Shown here: positions 1,551 to 51,042 of the stretch, in pieces | Numbering within the stretch: position 1 is the first letter of the stretch | Layout: each line of letters starts with the position of its first letter | Assembly: GCA_022843805.1 (NCBI GenBank) | Contig: JALHMY010000015.1 | Span: forward strand, 1-64,000 | Reading direction: 5' to 3' | DNA: 64,000 nucleotides | Source of the DNA: Fuerstiella sp. | GTDB lineage: Bacteria; Planctomycetota; Planctomycetia; Planctomycetales; Planctomycetaceae | Program-made: the position numbers and the translations under genes | Notes under the pieces: model-generated | What the model saw: only the letters and a program-made list of their open reading frames with translations | The model's database searches: none | Told to the model about the DNA's origin: nothing

Positions 1551-3668
1551 ATGAAGGTTGTTAGTGGTTCGTTGCTTTTGACTTTCATGACGAGCTGGCT
1601 GTGTGCTTTTCCCTGCATGGCGGCGGACTGGAGTTTGACCGACAATCCTCAGCTGGCCGCATTCTTTGAGGAGGAAGTGCAGAGGATTGAACGGCGGAAT
1701 TCGCTGACTCAGTATAGGACACTTGAAGAGTGGAATGCGGCGAAACCACGCCTTCGTCAGCAGTTGTTTGAAATGCTGGGGCTGGATCCGCTCCCGGAAC
1801 GTACGGACCTGGAGGCGGAGGTTTCCGGCGTTGCGGAGCACGAGGAATTCCGCATGGAACGCATCAGCTTTCAATCCATGCCGGGCCTCTACGTTTCCGG
1901 CAATCTGTACATTCCGAAGAAAATGGATGGACCTCTGCCGGCGGTTCTATATGTCTGCGGCCACGGCAACGTCAAAAAAGACGGGATCAGTTATGGCAGC
2001 AAGGCATCCTATCAGCGGCACGGGGGCTGGTTTGCACGCAATGGATACGTGTGCCTGGTGATCGATACTCTGCAGCTGGGTGAAATCGAAGGCATTCATC
2101 ATGGTACGTATCGTTACAACCGCTGGTGGTGGAACGCACGTGGGTACACTCCGGCGGGCGTTGAGGCGTGGAACTGTATGCGTGCGCTCGATTATCTGCA
2201 GAGTCGATCGGAAGTCGACGGGAGTCGGCTGGGAGTGACCGGGCGATCGGGAGGAGGAGCTTACAGCTGGTGGATCGCAGCACTTGACGATCGTATTCAG
2301 TGTGCGGTACCGGTCGCCGGAATTACGTCGATGCGCAATCATGTTGCAGACGGCTGTGTCGAAGGCCACTGCGACTGCATGTATATGGTGAATACGTATG
2401 GCTGGGACTATGCGGTTGTGGCCGCGCTTGTGGCACCTCGTCCGCTGCTGATTTCCAATACCGACAAAGACACGATTTTTCCTCTTGAAGGAGTGGTCGA
2501 CATTCATCGACAGGTGCGACACATTTATCGGCTTTATGGAATGCCAGAGCATCTGGGACTGCAGATCACCGAGGGACCGCACAAGGATACTCAGGAACTG
2601 CATGTGCATGCGTTTCGCTGGATGAATCGATTTCTGAGGAAAGACGAATCGATGATCAGCAAGCTCGTTGAGGATTTCTTTGTCCCGGAGCAGCTCCGAG
2701 TGTTCACGGCGATTCCGAAGGATGAGCGTAATACAACGATCGATGAAGTCTTCGTCCCGTTTCGCAGTCAGCCGTCAGCATCCGAAGATGCTGGAATTCT
2801 GGCCGATCTTCCGCGATGGGAACAATCGCTGCTTGAGATTCTGCGTGACAAATGTTTTGCCGCATGGCCGGAGAATCGATCCGACTGGCAGGCGACCGCA
2901 GTCAGTCTTCGGGAGACGCTCAAATCCGGGCCATTCTGGACATCCGCGTTTCCGGAACATGTTGTTAGTCGGCTGCATTTTGAGAGTCAGCCCAGTGTGC
3001 CTTTGTTTGTCGACGTGATCCATGCAAAGAATGTGCCACCAGCAAAGGTTGCACGTATTCACCTTCTGGCCGTGGACGATCTCACGTGGTCAGCGTATGA
3101 ACGGATTCTGGCAGGGCAGAACGATGCCGATTCGTCCACTTCAACCGATGATGTTTCGTCTGTGTTTCGTCTGATTCAGGGGCATCTTAAAGAAAGCGGT
3201 TCGGCAGTTGCCGTGTTTTCATCCCGCGGTATCGGTGCTCAGAAGTGGAAGGGTGACGAGAAGAAACAAATCCAGATTCAGCGACGATTTCAGCTGCTGG
3301 GGATGACTGCTGATGGAATGCGAGTCTGGGACCTGCGGCGAGCCTTACAGATATTGCGATCGGAGGCGGGAGACGAGGTGAACTTGTCTCTGCAGGCTTT
3401 GGGCAGGCAGGGACTGCTGGCCATTTGTGTGGGGATTTATGAGCGGCTGCCGGGAGGATTGTTTGTGGATGCCGCGTCACTGCCCACGGACGATACGGGC
3501 CCGGTCATTCTGAATCAGCAGAGACTTATCCATGTTCAGGAACTTGCAGCTCTTGCGCTGCGGAAGAATGCAATAACGGTGCGAGGTGACTCGCCACTGA
3601 CGGATCTGTCGCGGCGCCTGACGGAAGCACCTCAGTGGACTGGCGGTCATCTGACGCTTGAACCGTAA
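1551..3668 (+). CDS. Secreted alpha/beta-hydrolase (acetylxylan-esterase-like), long form
   Basis: A 705-residue protein. The start at 1551 gives a clean signal peptide of about 24 residues ending CMAA; an in-frame start 38 codons earlier adds no recognisable sequence. The N-terminal half is an alpha/beta hydrolase of the acetyl-xylan esterase/dienelactone hydrolase group: the strand AVLYVCGHGN at about 131-140, the nucleophile elbow GRSGGG with Ser233, an aspartate in SNTDKDTIF and a histidine in EGPHKDTQ supply a plausible Ser-Asp-His triad. The C-terminal 300 residues are less conserved and may be a second, degenerate hydrolase-like domain. It is probably periplasmic and removes acyl groups from plant or algal polysaccharides; the exact substrate is inferred. 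It is divergent from the preceding gene and is not obviously in an operon. Confidence 0.75.
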   Translation: MKVVSGSLLLTFMTSWLCAFPCMAADWSLTDNPQLAAFFEEEVQRIERRNSLTQYRTLEEWNAAKPRLRQQLFEMLGLDPLPERTDLEAEVSGVAEHEEFRMERISFQSMPGLYVSGNLYIPKKMDGPLPAVLYVCGHGNVKKDGISYGSKASYQRHGGWFARNGYVCLVIDTLQLGEIEGIHHGTYRYNRWWWNARGYTPAGVEAWNCMRALDYLQSRSEVDGSRLGVTGRSGGGAYSWWIAALDDRIQCAVPVAGITSMRNHVADGCVEGHCDCMYMVNTYGWDYAVVAALVAPRPLLISNTDKDTIFPLEGVVDIHRQVRHIYRLYGMPEHLGLQITEGPHKDTQELHVHAFRWMNRFLRKDESMISKLVEDFFVPEQLRVFTAIPKDERNTTIDEVFVPFRSQPSASEDAGILADLPRWEQSLLEILRDKCFAAWPENRSDWQATAVSLRETLKSGPFWTSAFPEHVVSRLHFESQPSVPLFVDVIHAKNVPPAKVARIHLLAVDDLTWSAYERILAGQNDADSSTSTDDVSSVFRLIQGHLKESGSAVAVFSSRGIGAQKWKGDEKKQIQIQRRFQLLGMTADGMRVWDLRRALQILRSEAGDEVNLSLQALGRQGLLAICVGIYERLPGGLFVDAASLPTDDTGPVILNQQRLIHVQELAALALRKNAITVRGDSPLTDLSRRLTEAPQWTGGHLTLEP

Positions 3669-3676
3669 GCATGATC

Positions 3677-3726
3677 GTCGTGGGCAACCATAGTCGTGGG
3701 CAACCATAACGTGGGCTTCAGCCCAC
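3677..3726. repeat. Short tandem repeat followed by a small hairpin
   Basis: Two exact tandem copies of the 16-mer GTCGTGGGCAACCATA lie at 3677-3692 and 3693-3708. They are followed directly by the perfect palindrome GTGGGCTTCAGCCCAC at 3711-3726. The element sits just after the esterase stop codon and may act as a weak transcription stop, although no T-tract follows. The remaining bases up to 3885 show nothing recognisable. Confidence 0.6.
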
Positions 3727-22263: not shown

Positions 22264-22798
22264 GCGGACGCTATTGCTCCCCCACGAGCTGCCTCGTGGG
22301 TTCATTTCGCCTCAGCGCCAGGGGGAGTTCCTTCGAACGTCGTCGTTCCGCGGGCATGTCCTGGCGCAAAGGCCCTGCGAGCCCACGAGGTGAACTCGTG
22401 GGGGCTGAGTGACGCGATTGGTCGCCCACGAGCTTGCCTCGTGGGTTCACCTCGCCTCTGCGTTTTGAAGTTGCACACTCTCAGCTCCGAAGGAGCGACA
22501 GCATGTAGCCGCGGGTGCCAACCCGCGGTTCCTGGTGTCTTCTGAACCACCAGCCACGAAGTGGCGACAGCAAACATTGCTGTCGCCACTTCGTGGCTTT
22601 CGGTTGGGATGGCTTCGTTTTCCCACGGCTTACGCCATGGGCTACATGCAGCCACCGCTTCGCGGTTAGAAAGTGCGCAACTTCAAAACCTCTGCGCCAG
22701 GGGGAGTTCCTTCGAACGTCGTCATTCCGCAGGCAAGTCCTGGCGCAAAGGCCCTGCGAGCCCACGAGGTGAACTCGTGGGGGCTGACGCCACACCGC
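22264..22798. repeat. Mosaic of direct and inverted repeats
   Basis: Two direct copies of a 94-base unit lie at 22315-22408 and 22694-22787 and differ at about three positions by eye. Each starts GCGCCAGGGGGAGTTCC and ends in a hairpin of CCCACGAG and CTCGTGGG. Between them is a perfect 22-bp stem (22552-22573 with 22577-22598, outer bases AGCCACGAAG, three-base loop). There is also a CCGCGGGT/ACCCGCGG hairpin near 22509-22528, and a TTTTGAAGTTGC element near 22464 that recurs inverted near 22676. Short open frames across the mosaic repeat the same peptide pieces on both strands and are not genes. Confidence 0.8.
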
Positions 22799-41788: not shown

Positions 41789-42219
41789 CTGACATCGTGA
41801 TGGAAGGGGGCAATAAGGTCGGCCCGTGATTGAAGGCGAGTTGGAAATCGTTCGTTGCACCAGAAAATAGCAGTAAGCGTCATTGCAGACCTGCTGATAT
41901 ATTGGCGTTTGAAATTGAAACCATTCGGAGTGTCCCTGCTGATTTTTGCGATCTCTGCTGCTTGTCGTAAGTGATTGCGGGTGAACGATTTGCGGTTTGT
42001 TCAGGGTTTTCAGCCTGAGTGCTGCTGAACGACAGTGGCAGAAATGGCCGTTGCTCTGAATTGCCGTTTCTGGTATCACCCTCTTTCTCAATCTTCCACT
42101 GTGTCGACGAGTCTGTGGGCTGTCGGCAGAACAGGTCAATTCTCTCTCAAACGCACCTGACTGATGGACAATTGTCAGGCAGGTGTGTCAAACGAAAAAG
42201 CCAGAATCAGCCGGCAGGG
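41789..42219. other. Gap with no recognised feature
   Basis: About 430 bases after the DUF4435 gene. No third defence gene, hairpin or known repeat is visible. Upstream in-frame extension of the following regulator runs through here but has no conserved residues. The right edge of a possible inserted island should lie in this gap. Confidence 0.5.
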
Positions 42220-43665
42220 ATGCCGGACGTCGTGGCCATGGAGCAGGCAGTGAGCGCGAAAAAACGGCACAATCTGCGAGTGCTTTTTGTCGACGATGAG
42301 CAGTCGATCGCTGATCTGATGAGGTCTGAGCTGCCTCGTATGGGGCATACGGCCACCATTCGGCAGACGGCCAGTTCAGCTATTGAGGCGATCAACAACA
42401 ATTCGTTCGATGCGGCCATCGTGGACCTGCGGATGCCAGGGGGCAGTGGCTGGGACGTGATCGACCATCTCCGCAAACATTCGCCGGAAACCGACTATAT
42501 CATTAGTACGGGTCACGGGAGTATGGATGATGCCATTCGCGGTATCCGCATGGGGGCATACGATTTTCTTCCCAAACCTGTTTCGCTGTTTGAGATTTCG
42601 AGTGCTCTGGATCGGATTGGCGAAAAAAAGTCACTGCAGAACAAGGCGCTTGCACTGGAGAGCCGGCTGGAGCGAGTTGAAGGTCGGTCTGACCTGATTG
42701 GTAATTCGCCGCCGATGCAGAGGGTGCATAAGCTGATCGAAAAAATTGCTCCGACGGACAGTGCGGTACTGATTCTTGGTGAAACGGGTACCGGTAAGGA
42801 AATGGTGGCCCGTCGGATTCATGATATGAGCGACCGGCGAGATGCGCCATTCGTTCCTGTCAATTGCGGAGCGTTACCGGAGAGTCTGGTCGAAAGTGAA
42901 TTTTTCGGCCATCGACGAGGCGCGTTTACCGGAGCAGACACGGCTCGGACGGGACTGTTTGAGGTCGCCAACGGTGGCACACTGTTTCTGGACGAACTGG
43001 GTGAGCTTGATAAGTCGATGCAGGTGAAGCTGCTTCGGTTTCTGGAATCTGGCGAAGTTCGCCGAGTCGGCGAGAATGAACCGATTCATGTGGATGTTCG
43101 AATTGTCTGTGCGACGAATCGTGAACTGGAGGAAATGGTTACGGAGGGAACGTTTCGTGAGGACCTGTTCTTCCGAGTGAATACTTTTGAAATTCATTTG
43201 CCGCCTTTGCGGGAGCGTCTGGATGACATTCCTCGTCTTGCCCTGCATCTGATCGGCCGACATTTGAAGCGCGAGCAGATTCCGCCGACGATTTTGCCGG
43301 CAGAAACGATTCAGATTCTGCAGGCACATCACTGGTCAGGAAATGTGCGTGAACTTTCGAATGTGCTTGAGCATGCACTCATTCTGTCGGACGGTACGCG
43401 GATCCTTCCCGAAGATTTGCCCCGAAGTGTGACTCGCGGCCCACATGCGTCACGTCATGCCGAATCGAATACGGTTCGGACGCCTGCGCTGGCGGTTGCT
43501 GAAGAAACTCCCACCACTCTTCGGGACATGGAGACTCGCATGATTCTTAATGCCTTAAAGAAGTATGAGGGTGACAAGCCAAAGGCAGCTCGTGAACTCG
43601 GCATTGCTCTGAAAACGCTCTACAACCGGCTGAATCAGATTGAACCGCACCGGGATGCCGGTTAA
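42220..43665 (+). CDS. Sigma-54-dependent response regulator (NtrC family)
   Basis: A 481-residue regulator with three domains. Residues about 18-135 are a receiver: DDE acidic pocket in VLFVDDEQS, phosphoacceptor Asp in AAIVDLRMPG, and Lys in FLPKPVS. Residues about 160-390 are the AAA+ sigma-54 activator domain with Walker A GETGTGKE, the sigma-54 contact loop GAFTGA, Walker B GGTLFLDELGEL and the arginine-finger region FREDLFFRVN. The last 45 residues hold a Fis-type helix-turn-helix (ALKKYEGDKPKAARELGIA). It should open sigma-54 promoters once phosphorylated. The start may be the ATG at 42220 or the one at 42238; neither has an ideal ribosome-binding site. The kinase encoded at 44247 on the same strand is a likely partner. 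Confidence 0.92.
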   Translation: MPDVVAMEQAVSAKKRHNLRVLFVDDEQSIADLMRSELPRMGHTATIRQTASSAIEAINNNSFDAAIVDLRMPGGSGWDVIDHLRKHSPETDYIISTGHGSMDDAIRGIRMGAYDFLPKPVSLFEISSALDRIGEKKSLQNKALALESRLERVEGRSDLIGNSPPMQRVHKLIEKIAPTDSAVLILGETGTGKEMVARRIHDMSDRRDAPFVPVNCGALPESLVESEFFGHRRGAFTGADTARTGLFEVANGGTLFLDELGELDKSMQVKLLRFLESGEVRRVGENEPIHVDVRIVCATNRELEEMVTEGTFREDLFFRVNTFEIHLPPLRERLDDIPRLALHLIGRHLKREQIPPTILPAETIQILQAHHWSGNVRELSNVLEHALILSDGTRILPEDLPRSVTRGPHASRHAESNTVRTPALAVAEETPTTLRDMETRMILNALKKYEGDKPKAARELGIALKTLYNRLNQIEPHRDAG

Positions 43666-47193: not shown

Positions 47194-47856
47194 TCAGAAT
47201 TCATCGGCCTTCACTTCGGGCTCCGCCACGGCGATCGCCACTGGTACGGGGGCAACCTTGAACTTGCGCACGACTCCGGTGATGACGCCCAGCACCTGAC
47301 GAGTCACAGATGAATAAGTGCCTGGGATTGCAGGGACAAGATGGTGGCTGCCTTCCTGGACCGTGCAGATGACAACCATGTGACGATCATCGAGCGCTGC
47401 AACCATACTGCCTGCCTGCATTGGCGATTCGCGATTCAGAATCAGGAAATCCCCGTCACAGATATTGAGTGGATTGAAGGCATTTCCTTCCACTTTCATG
47501 CAGCAGATATCGTTACCTTCGAACACTGTACCGAAGGAGACTGTTTCTTCTGACGACACAGTTGGCTGTACGGCACGTCCCGATACAGCGGTGCCGATCA
47601 GGGAAACGCTGAGGCGGTTTTGTGGAGCATCAGACAGCTGAATAGCGCGAGACATGTTTTGTTCGCGGCTGATCAGTCCCTTTCTCTCCAGTGCCTTCAG
47701 GTGGCACATCACACCGTTTGGAGAGCGGATGTTAAAGTGCACACCAATTTCTCTGACCGTTGGGCCATATCCCCGGTTAATAATCTTGTCTCGCAAAAAA
47801 TCGTAGATTTCTCGCTGACGGCGAGTCAGCGACGGCTTCTTGCTGTTTCCAATCAT
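47194..47856 (-). CDS. lexA: LexA-like repressor lacking the self-cleavage residues
   Basis: A 220-residue protein with the LexA layout. The N-terminal winged helix (TRRQREIYDFLRDKI, then TVREIGVHFNIRSPNGVMCH and LKALERKGLI) closely matches LexA. The C-terminal peptidase-like domain (SLIGTAVSG..., CDGDFLIL, AGSMVAAL, QVLGVITGVVR) is also clear. However, the scissile Ala-Gly is Ser92-Gly93, the catalytic Ser in the usual GDSM is Ala126 (in VEGNAF), and the catalytic Lys in the usual TVKR is replaced by hydrophobic residues (VVIC at 161-164). It should bind DNA but not cut itself in response to RecA. The start at 47856 follows GAAAGAAC; a longer frame upstream crosses the palindrome at 47882-47903 and is rejected. 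Confidence 0.88.
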   Translation of the reverse strand: MIGNSKKPSLTRRQREIYDFLRDKIINRGYGPTVREIGVHFNIRSPNGVMCHLKALERKGLISREQNMSRAIQLSDAPQNRLSVSLIGTAVSGRAVQPTVSSEETVSFGTVFEGNDICCMKVEGNAFNPLNICDGDFLILNRESPMQAGSMVAALDDRHMVVICTVQEGSHHLVPAIPGTYSSVTRQVLGVITGVVRKFKVAPVPVAIAVAEPEVKADEF

Positions 47857-47881: not shown

Positions 47882-47903
47882 CTCGATCGGATATCCGATC
47901 GAG
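47882..47903. promoter_or_regulatory. Perfect 22-bp palindrome, candidate operator of the LexA-like gene
   Basis: The half-site CTCGATCGGAT is followed directly by its exact reverse complement, with no spacer. It lies 26-47 bases upstream of the start codon of the LexA-like gene, where an autoregulatory operator would be expected. Its core GATCGG...CCGATC differs from the E. coli and Bacillus LexA boxes, as is usual in divergent phyla. Confidence 0.65.
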
Positions 47904-48594: not shown

Positions 48595-49950
48595 CTATTT
48601 CAGCATTGCCTGAAGCCGGGAACCGAGGTCTTTCGAGTTTGAGGTGGTTGTAATCACCACGCCGTTTTTGTCGACCAGCCAGACGGCTGGGCTGCGGGCG
48701 ATGCCCCAAAAGACCACCAGCGGGCTATTCCAGGATCGCTGATCAGGGTTCGGGAAGAAAATCTGCTGTCCGGGAACCTCATGCGATTCCATAAACGCGT
48801 TCAGTTCCGTTTCCGCATCATCGAGAGCCACTCCAACGATTCTTAGTCGTTCACCAGGAACCTGGCTGCGAATGCGCTGCAGTAGTGGAAGCAGATCGTC
48901 GGTAAATTCCTTGTCTTCTGACGACCAAAAGTAAATCAGCGTGGGTTTTCCCGAAAAGTCGTCCACAGAAACAAATCCACCATCGAGTGTGGGACCGGAG
49001 AACTGTGACAGTTTTTGTCCGGCCAGTGCCATCCTTCTGAGTGTCGCCGTTGCTTTCTGTCCCTGTGTTGATTCCGGGAATTTTTCTGCCAGTGCCGTGT
49101 AGCAAAGTTTGGCTTCGGTCATCAGTCTTTTGGCAAGCTCGGTATCCGCAGAGGACATAGAGTGCAATTCACAGCTTAATCCCGCTCCAAACAACATGGT
49201 GACAGCACGATTTTGCTGCTCGGGGAAGCGGTCCGCAAATTCTCTGGCCCACTGGGAAAGCGTGGTAAACCATTCTGGCTGTGTTTTCCCGAGCATACCG
49301 GCCTTAGTGTGGGCGAATTTTGCAATATAGTACACACCTTCGGCTGCGGCTGCTGATTTGGGGTCCCTTGAAGCGATGGCTTCCACATCGGCATAGAGCT
49401 GATCCACGTCTGTTTGATTACCGGCGAGCGCCATTTGAAACCGTGCTTCAAGGAGCTGTCCGATCGCCTGGTTAAAGAGTGGTTCTTTGCCTTCGTTATT
49501 CATTGTCAGGCGAAGGACATTTGTCGCCATTTCAATAATCTGTTCGTTTCGATCGCGTCGAGTTTTTCGGGCCTGTTCCAGATCCGCCGGTACGCTCCCC
49601 AGTCGCAGCTGCTGAATTTCTCTGAGGATCTTTGTTGCTTCATCGGCCTCGCCAGCGTTTTTTGTTTCCGGAGTCTCGCTGGCATCGACCGACTGCGACT
49701 CAGGCGATGCAATCGATGCCGTAATTCGTGCGGCCGCCGGAGTGTTCTGCTCATCCGGGGAAGAATCTGAGCCGTTTGCTGGTGACGATTCGGAGTCACT
49801 GTTGGGCAGATTCTGCCTCGTACCCGCGTTTGAAATCACCTGCGGCGAGCTGTCGGCAGACGGAGTCGAATCCGTTCCGCCACCGCACCCGGAAATCACT
49901 GCGACTACCAAAACAGAAATGGTGGCAAGGTGCAGTCGAAAACTAAACAT
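48595..49950 (-). CDS. Thioredoxin-like (TlpA-type) lipoprotein without CxxC
   Basis: A 451-residue predicted lipoprotein: the signal MFSFRLHLATISVLVVAVIS is followed by lipobox cysteine in ISGCGGG. A Ser/Pro/Asp-rich linker of about 90 residues leads into a helical, TPR-like middle region (about 120-320). Residues about 320-451 have the TlpA/AhpC-type thioredoxin fold: FSGPTLDGGFVSVDDFSGKP, then LIYFWSSEDKEF, RLRIVGVALDD and the cis-proline segment ARSPAVWLVDKNG. The redox motif expected after FW is SSED (343-346), with no cysteine in the domain, so disulfide exchange is excluded. It may act as a binding module or scaffold. Start at 49950; an ATG nine codons upstream would disrupt the signal peptide. 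Monocistronic. Confidence 0.78.
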   Translation of the reverse strand: MFSFRLHLATISVLVVAVISGCGGGTDSTPSADSSPQVISNAGTRQNLPNSDSESSPANGSDSSPDEQNTPAAARITASIASPESQSVDASETPETKNAGEADEATKILREIQQLRLGSVPADLEQARKTRRDRNEQIIEMATNVLRLTMNNEGKEPLFNQAIGQLLEARFQMALAGNQTDVDQLYADVEAIASRDPKSAAAAEGVYYIAKFAHTKAGMLGKTQPEWFTTLSQWAREFADRFPEQQNRAVTMLFGAGLSCELHSMSSADTELAKRLMTEAKLCYTALAEKFPESTQGQKATATLRRMALAGQKLSQFSGPTLDGGFVSVDDFSGKPTLIYFWSSEDKEFTDDLLPLLQRIRSQVPGERLRIVGVALDDAETELNAFMESHEVPGQQIFFPNPDQRSWNSPLVVFWGIARSPAVWLVDKNGVVITTTSNSKDLGSRLQAMLK

Positions 49951-50244
49951 TGGGCATCGATCCTTCGATTTTTCCATACCGGCGTTGCCTTATGATGACA
50001 ACCTGATTGCGTCCGCGAGGATGCTCGTCTCCTGAGAACCAGCGTTTTACAGCAAATTGTTCAGGAGTAAAATACGAATTCTGCCGATTCACGCTGTCCG
50101 TAGCGAACTCCTGTGAAACCGTTTAAAGTAATTCAAAGATTCTTCTTCGGCGGTACCGGCAAGTGAAATTTGCGGGCCAGCCGAGTCCTCCCTTTGGCGA
50201 TGCGTTGCCTTCTTCCAGGCTGATTTGTTTCTGAGATTATTGCT

Positions 50245-51042
50245 ATGGCCGCTGATGCAAAACCTGTCAATCCTTCAGAACTCCGAGTTCTGGCGATTCA
50301 CGCACATCCCGATGATATTGAATTCCAGTGTGCCGGGACTTTGGTCAGACTGCGTGATCTGGGATGTCGGATTTCTGTTGCCACGATGACGCCAGGCGAC
50401 GGCGGAAGTGCAGAACATTCTGCCGAACAAATCTCGGCAATTCGCCGTGGTGAGGCTGCCGCAGCGGCAGAGATTCTTCAGGCTGATTACACCTGTCTTG
50501 AATTCCGCGATCTTTCCATCTGTTTTGACAATGACAGTCGCCGACGGATGACGGAATTTGTACGTCGCAAACGCCCCGACCTGATTTTGACGGCACCTCC
50601 GGTCGACTATATGCACGACCATGAAATCACGAGTGCGCTTGTTCGGGATGCCTGCTTCAACGCGTCTGTGCCAAATTATCGAACTCAGCAGTGGGATCCG
50701 GCTCCCCCGACGAAAAAGATTCCATGGCTGTATTACGTCGACCCCGTTGAAGGAACTGATCATTTTGGCAATCGGCAGCCTGTGGATTTTATTGTCGATG
50801 TGACTGCTCAGTTTGATATTAAGCATCGGGCGCTGGCCTGCCACGCCAGCCAGCGGGAATGGCTTCGGCGCCAGCACGGCATCGATGAATATATGGATGC
50901 CTGTGTGCGCTGGAGCCGGGCGCGGGGAGCGGAACTGGGCGTCGAACATGGAGAAGGATTCCGTCAGTACAAAGGGCATCCTCATCCGGTCAGCAATCTT
51001 CTTTATGAACTGCTGGGTTCTGCCCGTACCCCGCAAACCTGA
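50245..51042 (+). CDS. PIG-L (LmbE-like) family deacetylase
   Basis: A 265-residue zinc hydrolase. Family motifs are AIHAHPDDIEFQCAGT at about residue 17 (the HPDD zinc and catalytic residues), TPGDGGS near 49, and YMHDHEITSALVRDA near 123 with two His ligands. PIG-L enzymes remove N-acetyl from GlcNAc linked to lipids, thiols or antibiotics, for example BshB in bacillithiol synthesis; the length fits this type. The substrate here is not determined. The protein is cytoplasmic, since no signal peptide is present. The ATG at 50245 has no strong ribosome-binding site. It is followed on the same strand, about 200 bases on, by a small membrane protein gene. Confidence 0.85.
   Translation: MAADAKPVNPSELRVLAIHAHPDDIEFQCAGTLVRLRDLGCRISVATMTPGDGGSAEHSAEQISAIRRGEAAAAAEILQADYTCLEFRDLSICFDNDSRRRMTEFVRRKRPDLILTAPPVDYMHDHEITSALVRDACFNASVPNYRTQQWDPAPPTKKIPWLYYVDPVEGTDHFGNRQPVDFIVDVTAQFDIKHRALACHASQREWLRRQHGIDEYMDACVRWSRARGAELGVEHGEGFRQYKGHPHPVSNLLYELLGSARTPQT

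Follow-up and report, generated by a model that had tools for sequence, protein, structure and literature searches.

What does a LexA repressor do once it has lost the residues with which it cuts itself? The question is raised by P0001, a protein encoded in a 64,000-nucleotide stretch of a Fuerstiella sp. genome, here called the window. An earlier note, made from the sequence alone, had recognized the DNA-binding domain and overall layout of LexA, and profile and structure comparisons bear out this assignment. The open reading frame was confirmed and starts with ATG (Table 1). P0001 scores 78.6 bits against PF01726 LexA_DNA_bind (Pfam cut-off 23.7), so a LexA-type winged helix is present, and 25.7 bits against PF00717 Peptidase_S24 (Pfam cut-off 23.3). 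The NCBIfam equivalog TIGR00498 lexA is matched with 120.9 bits (cut-off 110.95) despite the absence of the catalytic dyad. The best sequence matches among solved structures are LexA repressors, and a structure model built from 11 family members is most like LexA structures in a fold comparison with the PDB (model confidence is moderate, with a pLDDT of 71.9 and a pTM of 0.47).

Table 1. Features of the window at and around the P0001 gene.
Feature	Position	Strand	Description
NtrC-like response regulator (receiver, sigma-54 AAA+, HTH_8)	42019..43662	plus	convergent neighbour of lexA in the clade
PAS/GAF histidine kinase, 969 aa	44217..47126	plus	between the response regulator and P0001 in the window genome
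P0001, dyad-less LexA (LexA1 type)	47194..47856	minus	220 aa; winged helix, residues 9-71; S24-fold domain, about 85-200
Perfect 22-bp palindrome CTCGATCGGATATCCGATCGAG	47882..47903	none	25 bp upstream of the P0001 start codon
Thioredoxin-fold protein (AhpC-TSA/Thioredoxin_8)	48595..49977	minus	conserved upstream neighbour; also beside cleavable LexA1
PIG-L deacetylase	50245..51042	plus	conserved neighbour

In the alignment with E. coli LexA, Ser119 corresponds to Ala126 of P0001, Lys156 to Cys164 and the scissile Ala84-Gly85 to Ser92-Gly93. Both features of an SOS repressor, the Ser-Lys dyad and the Ala-Gly scissile bond, are absent. Ala126 and Ser92-Gly93 had been named in the earlier note and are retained here; the loss of the lysine also stands, but its replacement, described there as hydrophobic residues, is Cys164, though set in a hydrophobic strand. 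The same losses run through a clade of relatives, represented by 24 alignment rows from 22 different genes (the genes of L147 and L155 are those already counted from G053 and G098). The rows comprise 11 loci and 13 of 80 named contigs (L147-L159), and L037 is cut by a contig end. The lysine position holds Cys in 23 rows and Tyr in one; the serine position holds Ala in nine, Gly in four, Leu, Ser and Asn in three each and Thr in two; the scissile AG pair is kept in 3 of the 24. Because the lysine is missing from every row and the serine from 21, a sequencing error is very unlikely to be the cause of the missing dyad. A tree containing 13 of the rows unites them in one clade with support of 100/100, and a larger quick tree keeps 21 rows together with an SH-aLRT value of 92. 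The record names of L147-L159 include Planctomycetaceae, Planctomyces sp. and Fuerstiella sp.; two titled Candidatus Kuenenia stuttgartiensis are taken to be mislabelled bins.

Self-cleavage could in principle persist through another dyad in the fold, and the serine kept in three clade rows may be read in that direction. The alignment with other planctomycete LexA proteins, which had been proposed as a check, reveals no alternative conserved Ser/Lys pair among the 24 rows. Serine is kept in at least half of them at columns 83, 92, 101, 102 and 107, and a C-domain lysine at residue 121 alone (12 of 24). With no lysine column kept in more than half of the rows, a relocated dyad is scarcely credible. 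As far as its sequence tells, P0001 is a real and conserved LexA that should be unable to cut itself, in a genome in which a recA gene is present.

The clade has gained conserved residues as well as lost them. Phe127, Leu130, Arg158, Val161, Cys164 and Arg186 each occur in 20-23 of the 24 clade rows and in none of 79 cleavable comparison rows, a set that includes near-copies. Asp156 occurs in 24/24 clade rows versus 6/79 cleavable rows, and His159 in 22/24 versus 2/79. Several of these residues lie at or adjoining the old active site in the alignment, and we infer that the former site has been rebuilt as a pocket with a new function. The dN/dS values of the clade C-domain range from 0.077 to 0.132 (five pairs with unsaturated values; the sixth pair is saturated) and those of its DNA-binding domain from 0.014 to 0.059 (four pairs). 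For the C-domain of cleavable LexA the values are lower, 0 to 0.042 (five pairs). Both domains are thus under purifying selection in the clade, the dyad-less C-domain less strictly than its cleavable counterpart. Gradual decay towards a pseudogene would account for the loss of three catalytic features and for a C-domain dN/dS above that of cleavable pairs; however, the values of about 0.1, the reading frames open in all 24 rows (L037 ends at the contig edge) and the newly conserved residues make decay highly improbable. With a C-domain dN/dS of 0.08-0.13 and new conserved residues, P0001 is therefore no pseudogene.

The genome position of P0001 is that of cleavable LexA. Of 23 dyad-less loci, 15 have the response regulator nearby, 10 the thioredoxin-fold protein and 9 the PIG-L deacetylase. 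Of the family's 28 cleavable LexA1 genes, viewed with flanks of at most 1.5 kb, 23 have the response regulator, the thioredoxin-fold protein or both as neighbours and five have neither. All three neighbours are present at L166 and L181, both of which encode AG, Ser and Lys. The recognition helix SPNGVMCH is likewise common to both groups (21/24 dyad-less and 76/79 cleavable rows). Since the neighbours and the recognition helix are shared with cleavable planctomycete LexA, P0001 is best read as a vertical descendant of the ancestral cleavable gene, changed in place. Among the matches listed, a lexA match occurs in 98 of 101 genomes of the family; some family genomes have many LexA-like matches, for example at least 13 in G093.

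The neighbours also bear on whether P0001 could stay responsive to damage through another protease, such as Clp, Lon or an IrrE-like metalloprotease of the kind known for DdrO. The case is one of analogy, with IrrE acting on the repressor DdrO as the precedent. The genes around P0001 encode a two-component system, a PIG-L deacetylase and a thioredoxin-fold protein, none of which points to a partner protease, and we regard this route as improbable.

Elsewhere in the window, two Acido-Lenti-1 RNA matches lie in opposite orientation, 93 bases apart (22483-22528, minus; 22622-22667, plus). A second such pair, separated by 105 bases, is found in L079 (3485-3530, minus; 3636-3681, plus). The paired matches at two genome places are perhaps the ends of a small mobile unit.

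Dyad loss extends beyond the P0001 clade. Further dyad-less LexA1 proteins form a Schlesneria group (L190, L193, L195, L206 and L215) and a group with Arg for Lys (L168, L172, L183, L186 and L214), together with single dyad-less rows. The Schlesneria group nests within cleavable LexA (99/94), none of 200 bootstrap trees separates the cleavable rows from the rest by a single branch, and the starred branches of the LexA tree require at least two changes. A single origin of the Schlesneria group and the P0001 clade survives an AU test (p 0.153). Several independent losses are likely rather than certain. The 80 named loci are the best 80 of 520 relatives by likeness to the P0001 clade and give no measure of phylum-wide frequency. 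In L170 and in L051/L224, LexA1 keeps Ser and Lys and carries PG and AT, respectively, in place of the Ala-Gly pair; these proteins are possible intermediates of dyad loss.

To place P0001 in a regulon, we inferred the planctomycete LexA box from sequence. AC-N4-GTATA occurs upstream of 45 of 78 cleavable LexA1 genes (shuffled mean 1.0, maximum 5), and its fuller form is TGTAC-N4-GTATATTA. The initial reading of the box, made by eye, used sequences that belong to the 78; the first set gives 15/28 and the later set 30/50, with some genes, such as L013 and L162, in both sets. The count of 78 leaves aside L007 and L026 (another LexA type), the Ser+Lys rows without Ala-Gly, L195 (as L190) and one cleavable row for which the upstream region could not be located or was of insufficient length. 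None of the 24 genes of the P0001 clade has the box upstream, and neither do any of the four Schlesneria dyad-less genes or any of 12 dyad-less genes of other groups. With a relaxed form the count is 39/78 for the cleavable genes versus 3/24 for the clade (shuffled mean 0.27) and none for the Schlesneria and other dyad-less genes. At imuA, TGTAC-N4-GTATA occurs in 4 of 12 scanned genomes outside the clade (L086, L087, L088 and L095), and the tested form is found in none of the eight clade genomes scanned. The P0001 clade thus appears to be cut off from the ancestral LexA regulon.

These counts weigh most directly on a P0001 that would occupy the ancestral SOS boxes permanently and, as it is not cleaved, would damp or block SOS induction. 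Such a floor repressor is in keeping with the unchanged recognition helix and with the relaxed box at 3 of the 24 clade genes, but AC-N4-GTATA is absent from the clade lexA promoters and no box of the tested form stands at imuA in the eight clade genomes scanned. The strict TGTAC-N4-GTATA box has no copy in the window genome (reversed control 9), yet it is also rare in other genomes of the family, 11 of which, all having a strong lexA match, contain 0 to 4 copies each; because relatives have so few, the zero decides little. We consider a permanent repressor of this kind unlikely, though somewhat less so than the route through another protease.

Upstream of P0001 itself lies the 22-bp palindrome CTCGATCGGATATCCGATCGAG. 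It is the sole copy in the window genome with up to three mismatches allowed, and none is present in three genus mates. It could be a private operator or a hairpin of the 5' leader; as the operator of P0001 it was not adopted, given the single copy and the absence from the genus mates. Reading by eye and a palindrome scan found no shared operator motif upstream of the clade lexA genes. No target gene of P0001 was found, so its non-SOS role is put forward as a proposal.

The imuA promoters of the clade carry a different element. A TTGAC-N7-N(T/G)CAA palindrome lies over the -35 region of imuA in 13 of 18 scanned clade genomes (G000, which is the window genome, G047, G080, G100, G081, G053, G077, G098, G101, G102, G108, G109 and G110), and its best copies read AAGTTGAC-N7-GTCAACTT. 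It was not seen in G103-G107, which also have a dyad-less LexA. Outside this count are G042, G071 and G111, where imuA is part of a lexA cassette, and G005, which has no imuA match. Genome-wide, with one mismatch and with near-palindromes counted on both strands, GTTGAC-N7-RTCAAC is more frequent than its reversed control in eight of the 10 clade genomes, among the matches listed. Examples of the excess are G047 (149/92), G080 (128/67) and G042 (164/76); it is smallest in G100 (48 versus 27) and G098 (147 versus 124), and there is none in G000 (63 versus 64) or G071 (82 versus 91), again among the matches listed.

The protein that binds this palindrome could be P0001 itself, which would then still control mutagenic repair through a changed operator. 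Consistent with such a takeover, all 13 genomes with the palindrome have a dyad-less LexA, G098 has it without an XRE-S24 protein, G109 keeps it perfect although its csrA-xre operator (described below) has changed, and the genome-wide excess is seen in the eight genomes, G000 and G071 excepted, among the matches listed. However, in relatives the recognition helix of P0001 accompanies the AC-N4-GTATA box, the loci scanned show no copy of the palindrome upstream of clade lexA genes, and G103-G107 have no visible copy at imuA despite their dyad-less LexA. The csrA-xre promoter of G080 has a one-mismatch copy, which links the palindrome more readily to the XRE-S24 operon. On balance, control of imuA by P0001 is doubtful, about as much so as control of P0001 by another protease.

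The leaders downstream of these promoters share an GGTAGGGA element, often GGTAGGGAAACCGT, in 16 of 17 leaders viewed (L079, L084, L085 and others). It lies approximately 77-190 bases downstream of the palindrome and could form a small hairpin. Most leaders also have a GCCGAT(G/C)A stretch, and no Rfam match up to an E value of 1 was found in the imuA leader at six loci. The AGGGA of the leader element might be a CsrA site, which would connect it with the csrA-xre operon.

If P0001 cannot be cleaved, a second repressor is the natural place to look for a switch, and the earlier note had suggested a search for one. The window genome has two S24 matches, P0001 with 26.7 bits and another protein (G000:C4) with 92.4 bits. 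The latter has a different DNA-binding domain, combining HTH_31/HTH_3 with S24 in an XRE-type arrangement; it keeps AG, Ser and Lys in the motifs HIAAG, GDSM and ATLKR, and its gene adjoins csrA. A further protein of the window genome (G000:C73; L002 1441-1932, minus; 163 aa) has a winged helix of the LexA type but does not match S24.

We extended the search to 38 genomes with a broken LexA1; the dyad is lost in 37, and G010 keeps Ser and Lys without Ala-Gly. Another S24 protein scoring at least 89 bits is present in 34 of them, the next value being 58, and all 34 proteins have Ser and Lys by pattern and Ala-Gly by reading. The comparison for the figure of 34/38 is a substitute for a matched PF00717 control in cleavable-LexA genomes: a single strong lexA match (E below 1e-55) and no other occurs in 38 of 101 family genomes among the matches listed. 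No second intact S24 protein was found in the other four genomes, namely G100, G005 and G019 (66%, 86% and 90% complete) and G119, which by contig and position appears to be the same as G014 (78% complete). By these sequence patterns, the pairing of dyad loss with another, dyad-keeping repressor holds in 34 of the 38 genomes. The second repressor is an XRE-S24 protein in 16 genomes, a winged-helix LexA in 12 and another winged-helix S24 protein in six. csrA lies directly upstream of the XRE-S24 gene in 15 of the 16, and the 12 winged-helix LexA genes have imuA in the same stretch.

We hypothesize that the XRE-S24 protein runs the SOS response, and its operator was sought accordingly. The csrA-xre promoter carries TGTTG-N10-CAACA or a near form, within 170 bases, in 11 of 15 genomes. 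The copies lie farther upstream in G105 and G107, and the operator is changed in G109 to TGTTTTG-N6-CAAAACA (TGTTT-N10-AAACA). When each genome's own operator was sought at its imuA, a copy was found in 1 of 15, G109 (17/20 bases; 0 of 100 shuffles as good), and not in the other 14, including G000, where takeover of imuA by the XRE-S24 protein is thus not borne out. Three observations point towards such a takeover: the copy in G109 and the imuA-type palindromes in the csrA-xre promoters of G080 and, with three mismatches, G000. The G109 copy (L274) adjoins a perfect AGTTGAC-N7-GTCAACT palindrome, and the G080 palindrome (L046 4266-4286; one mismatch) lies approximately 20 bases from TGTTG-N10-CAACA. 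Shared control of imuA and csrA-xre is possible in G080, as judged by these promoter elements.

Our preferred reading is that P0001 is probably the ancestral LexA turned in place into a non-cleavable, most likely non-SOS regulator with a rebuilt pocket. On this reading the lineage's own chromosomal LexA lost the Ser-Lys dyad and the scissile bond in place, with the recognition helix unchanged. P0001 would still dimerize through its S24 fold and bind DNA; DNA damage and RecA would be unable to switch it off. Its role would lie outside SOS, and some other input would tune it, most probably by way of the remodelled old active site (Phe127, Leu130, Arg158, His159, Val161 and Cys164). RecA-dependent switching, if any, would fall to the second S24 repressor, which in the window genome is the XRE-HTH/S24 protein encoded next to csrA. 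The earlier proposal that the SOS switch works differently here, or that the protein controls other genes, gains support from the lack of a replacement dyad and the presence of a second intact S24 protein, and from the absence of the ancestral box at the lexA and scanned imuA promoters of the clade.

A broader and less probable version is that planctomycetes, once another S24 repressor was at hand, repeatedly converted the chromosomal LexA into a sensor that works without proteolysis. Within the P0001 clade, the rebuilt cleft might then make LexA a one-component sensor of a signal other than DNA damage, possibly as a redox, metal or small-ligand pocket. The site would possibly be formed by Phe127, Leu130, Asp156, Arg158, His159, Val161 and Cys164 plus the older Cys119.

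The textbook DNA-damage switch should be unable to work through a LexA of the P0001 type, and the curated equivalog TIGR00498 still labels such a protein an SOS repressor, which is a warning for annotation. Cleavable and dyad-less LexA proteins with the same neighbours and the same DNA-reading helix in related genomes form a natural series, in which the fate of a regulon after the loss of its switch becomes directly testable. In the literature searched, with most subscription journals outside its scope, no report of a dyad-less planctomycete LexA was found among the matches listed, and the non-cleavable LexA described there is that of Synechocystis; the clade adds a planctomycete case.

Three known systems invite comparison. 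The first is LexA of Synechocystis sp. PCC 6803; the earlier note had mentioned non-cleavable LexA in some cyanobacteria. The Synechocystis protein is reported to lack Ala-Gly and the serine, to have no part in SOS and to control other genes, perhaps tuned by phosphorylation (PMC3091678, PMC4759255, PMC7567884). By the same features P0001 is alike, having neither Ala-Gly nor the catalytic serine (PMC3091678, PMC4759255). However, Synechocystis is a cyanobacterium and the loss reported there is that of Ser and Ala-Gly, whereas the P0001 clade has lost the lysine throughout. Unlike Synechocystis LexA as there reported, the clade also has new residues conserved around the old site, and a second intact S24 protein accompanies the broken LexA in 34/38 genomes. 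The second system comprises the HdiR and Bacteroidetes repressors; Bacteroidetes are reported to use HTH_3-S24 proteins to repress SOS (PMC8565304). The second repressor described here is built in the same way, with HTH_3/HTH_31 and an S24 domain containing Ala-Gly, Ser and Lys; unlike those repressors, the XRE-S24 protein of the window genome adjoins csrA, and its control of the mutasome is putative. The third is the cleavable planctomycete LexA1 with the helix SPNGVMCHL; planctomycete LexA is reported not to recognize the E. coli motif (PMC3108266). P0001 has its neighbours, recognition helix and family in common with this protein, but cleavable LexA1 keeps AG, Ser and Lys, and 45 of its 78 genes have the upstream AC-N4-GTATA box, which none of the 24 genes of the P0001 clade has.
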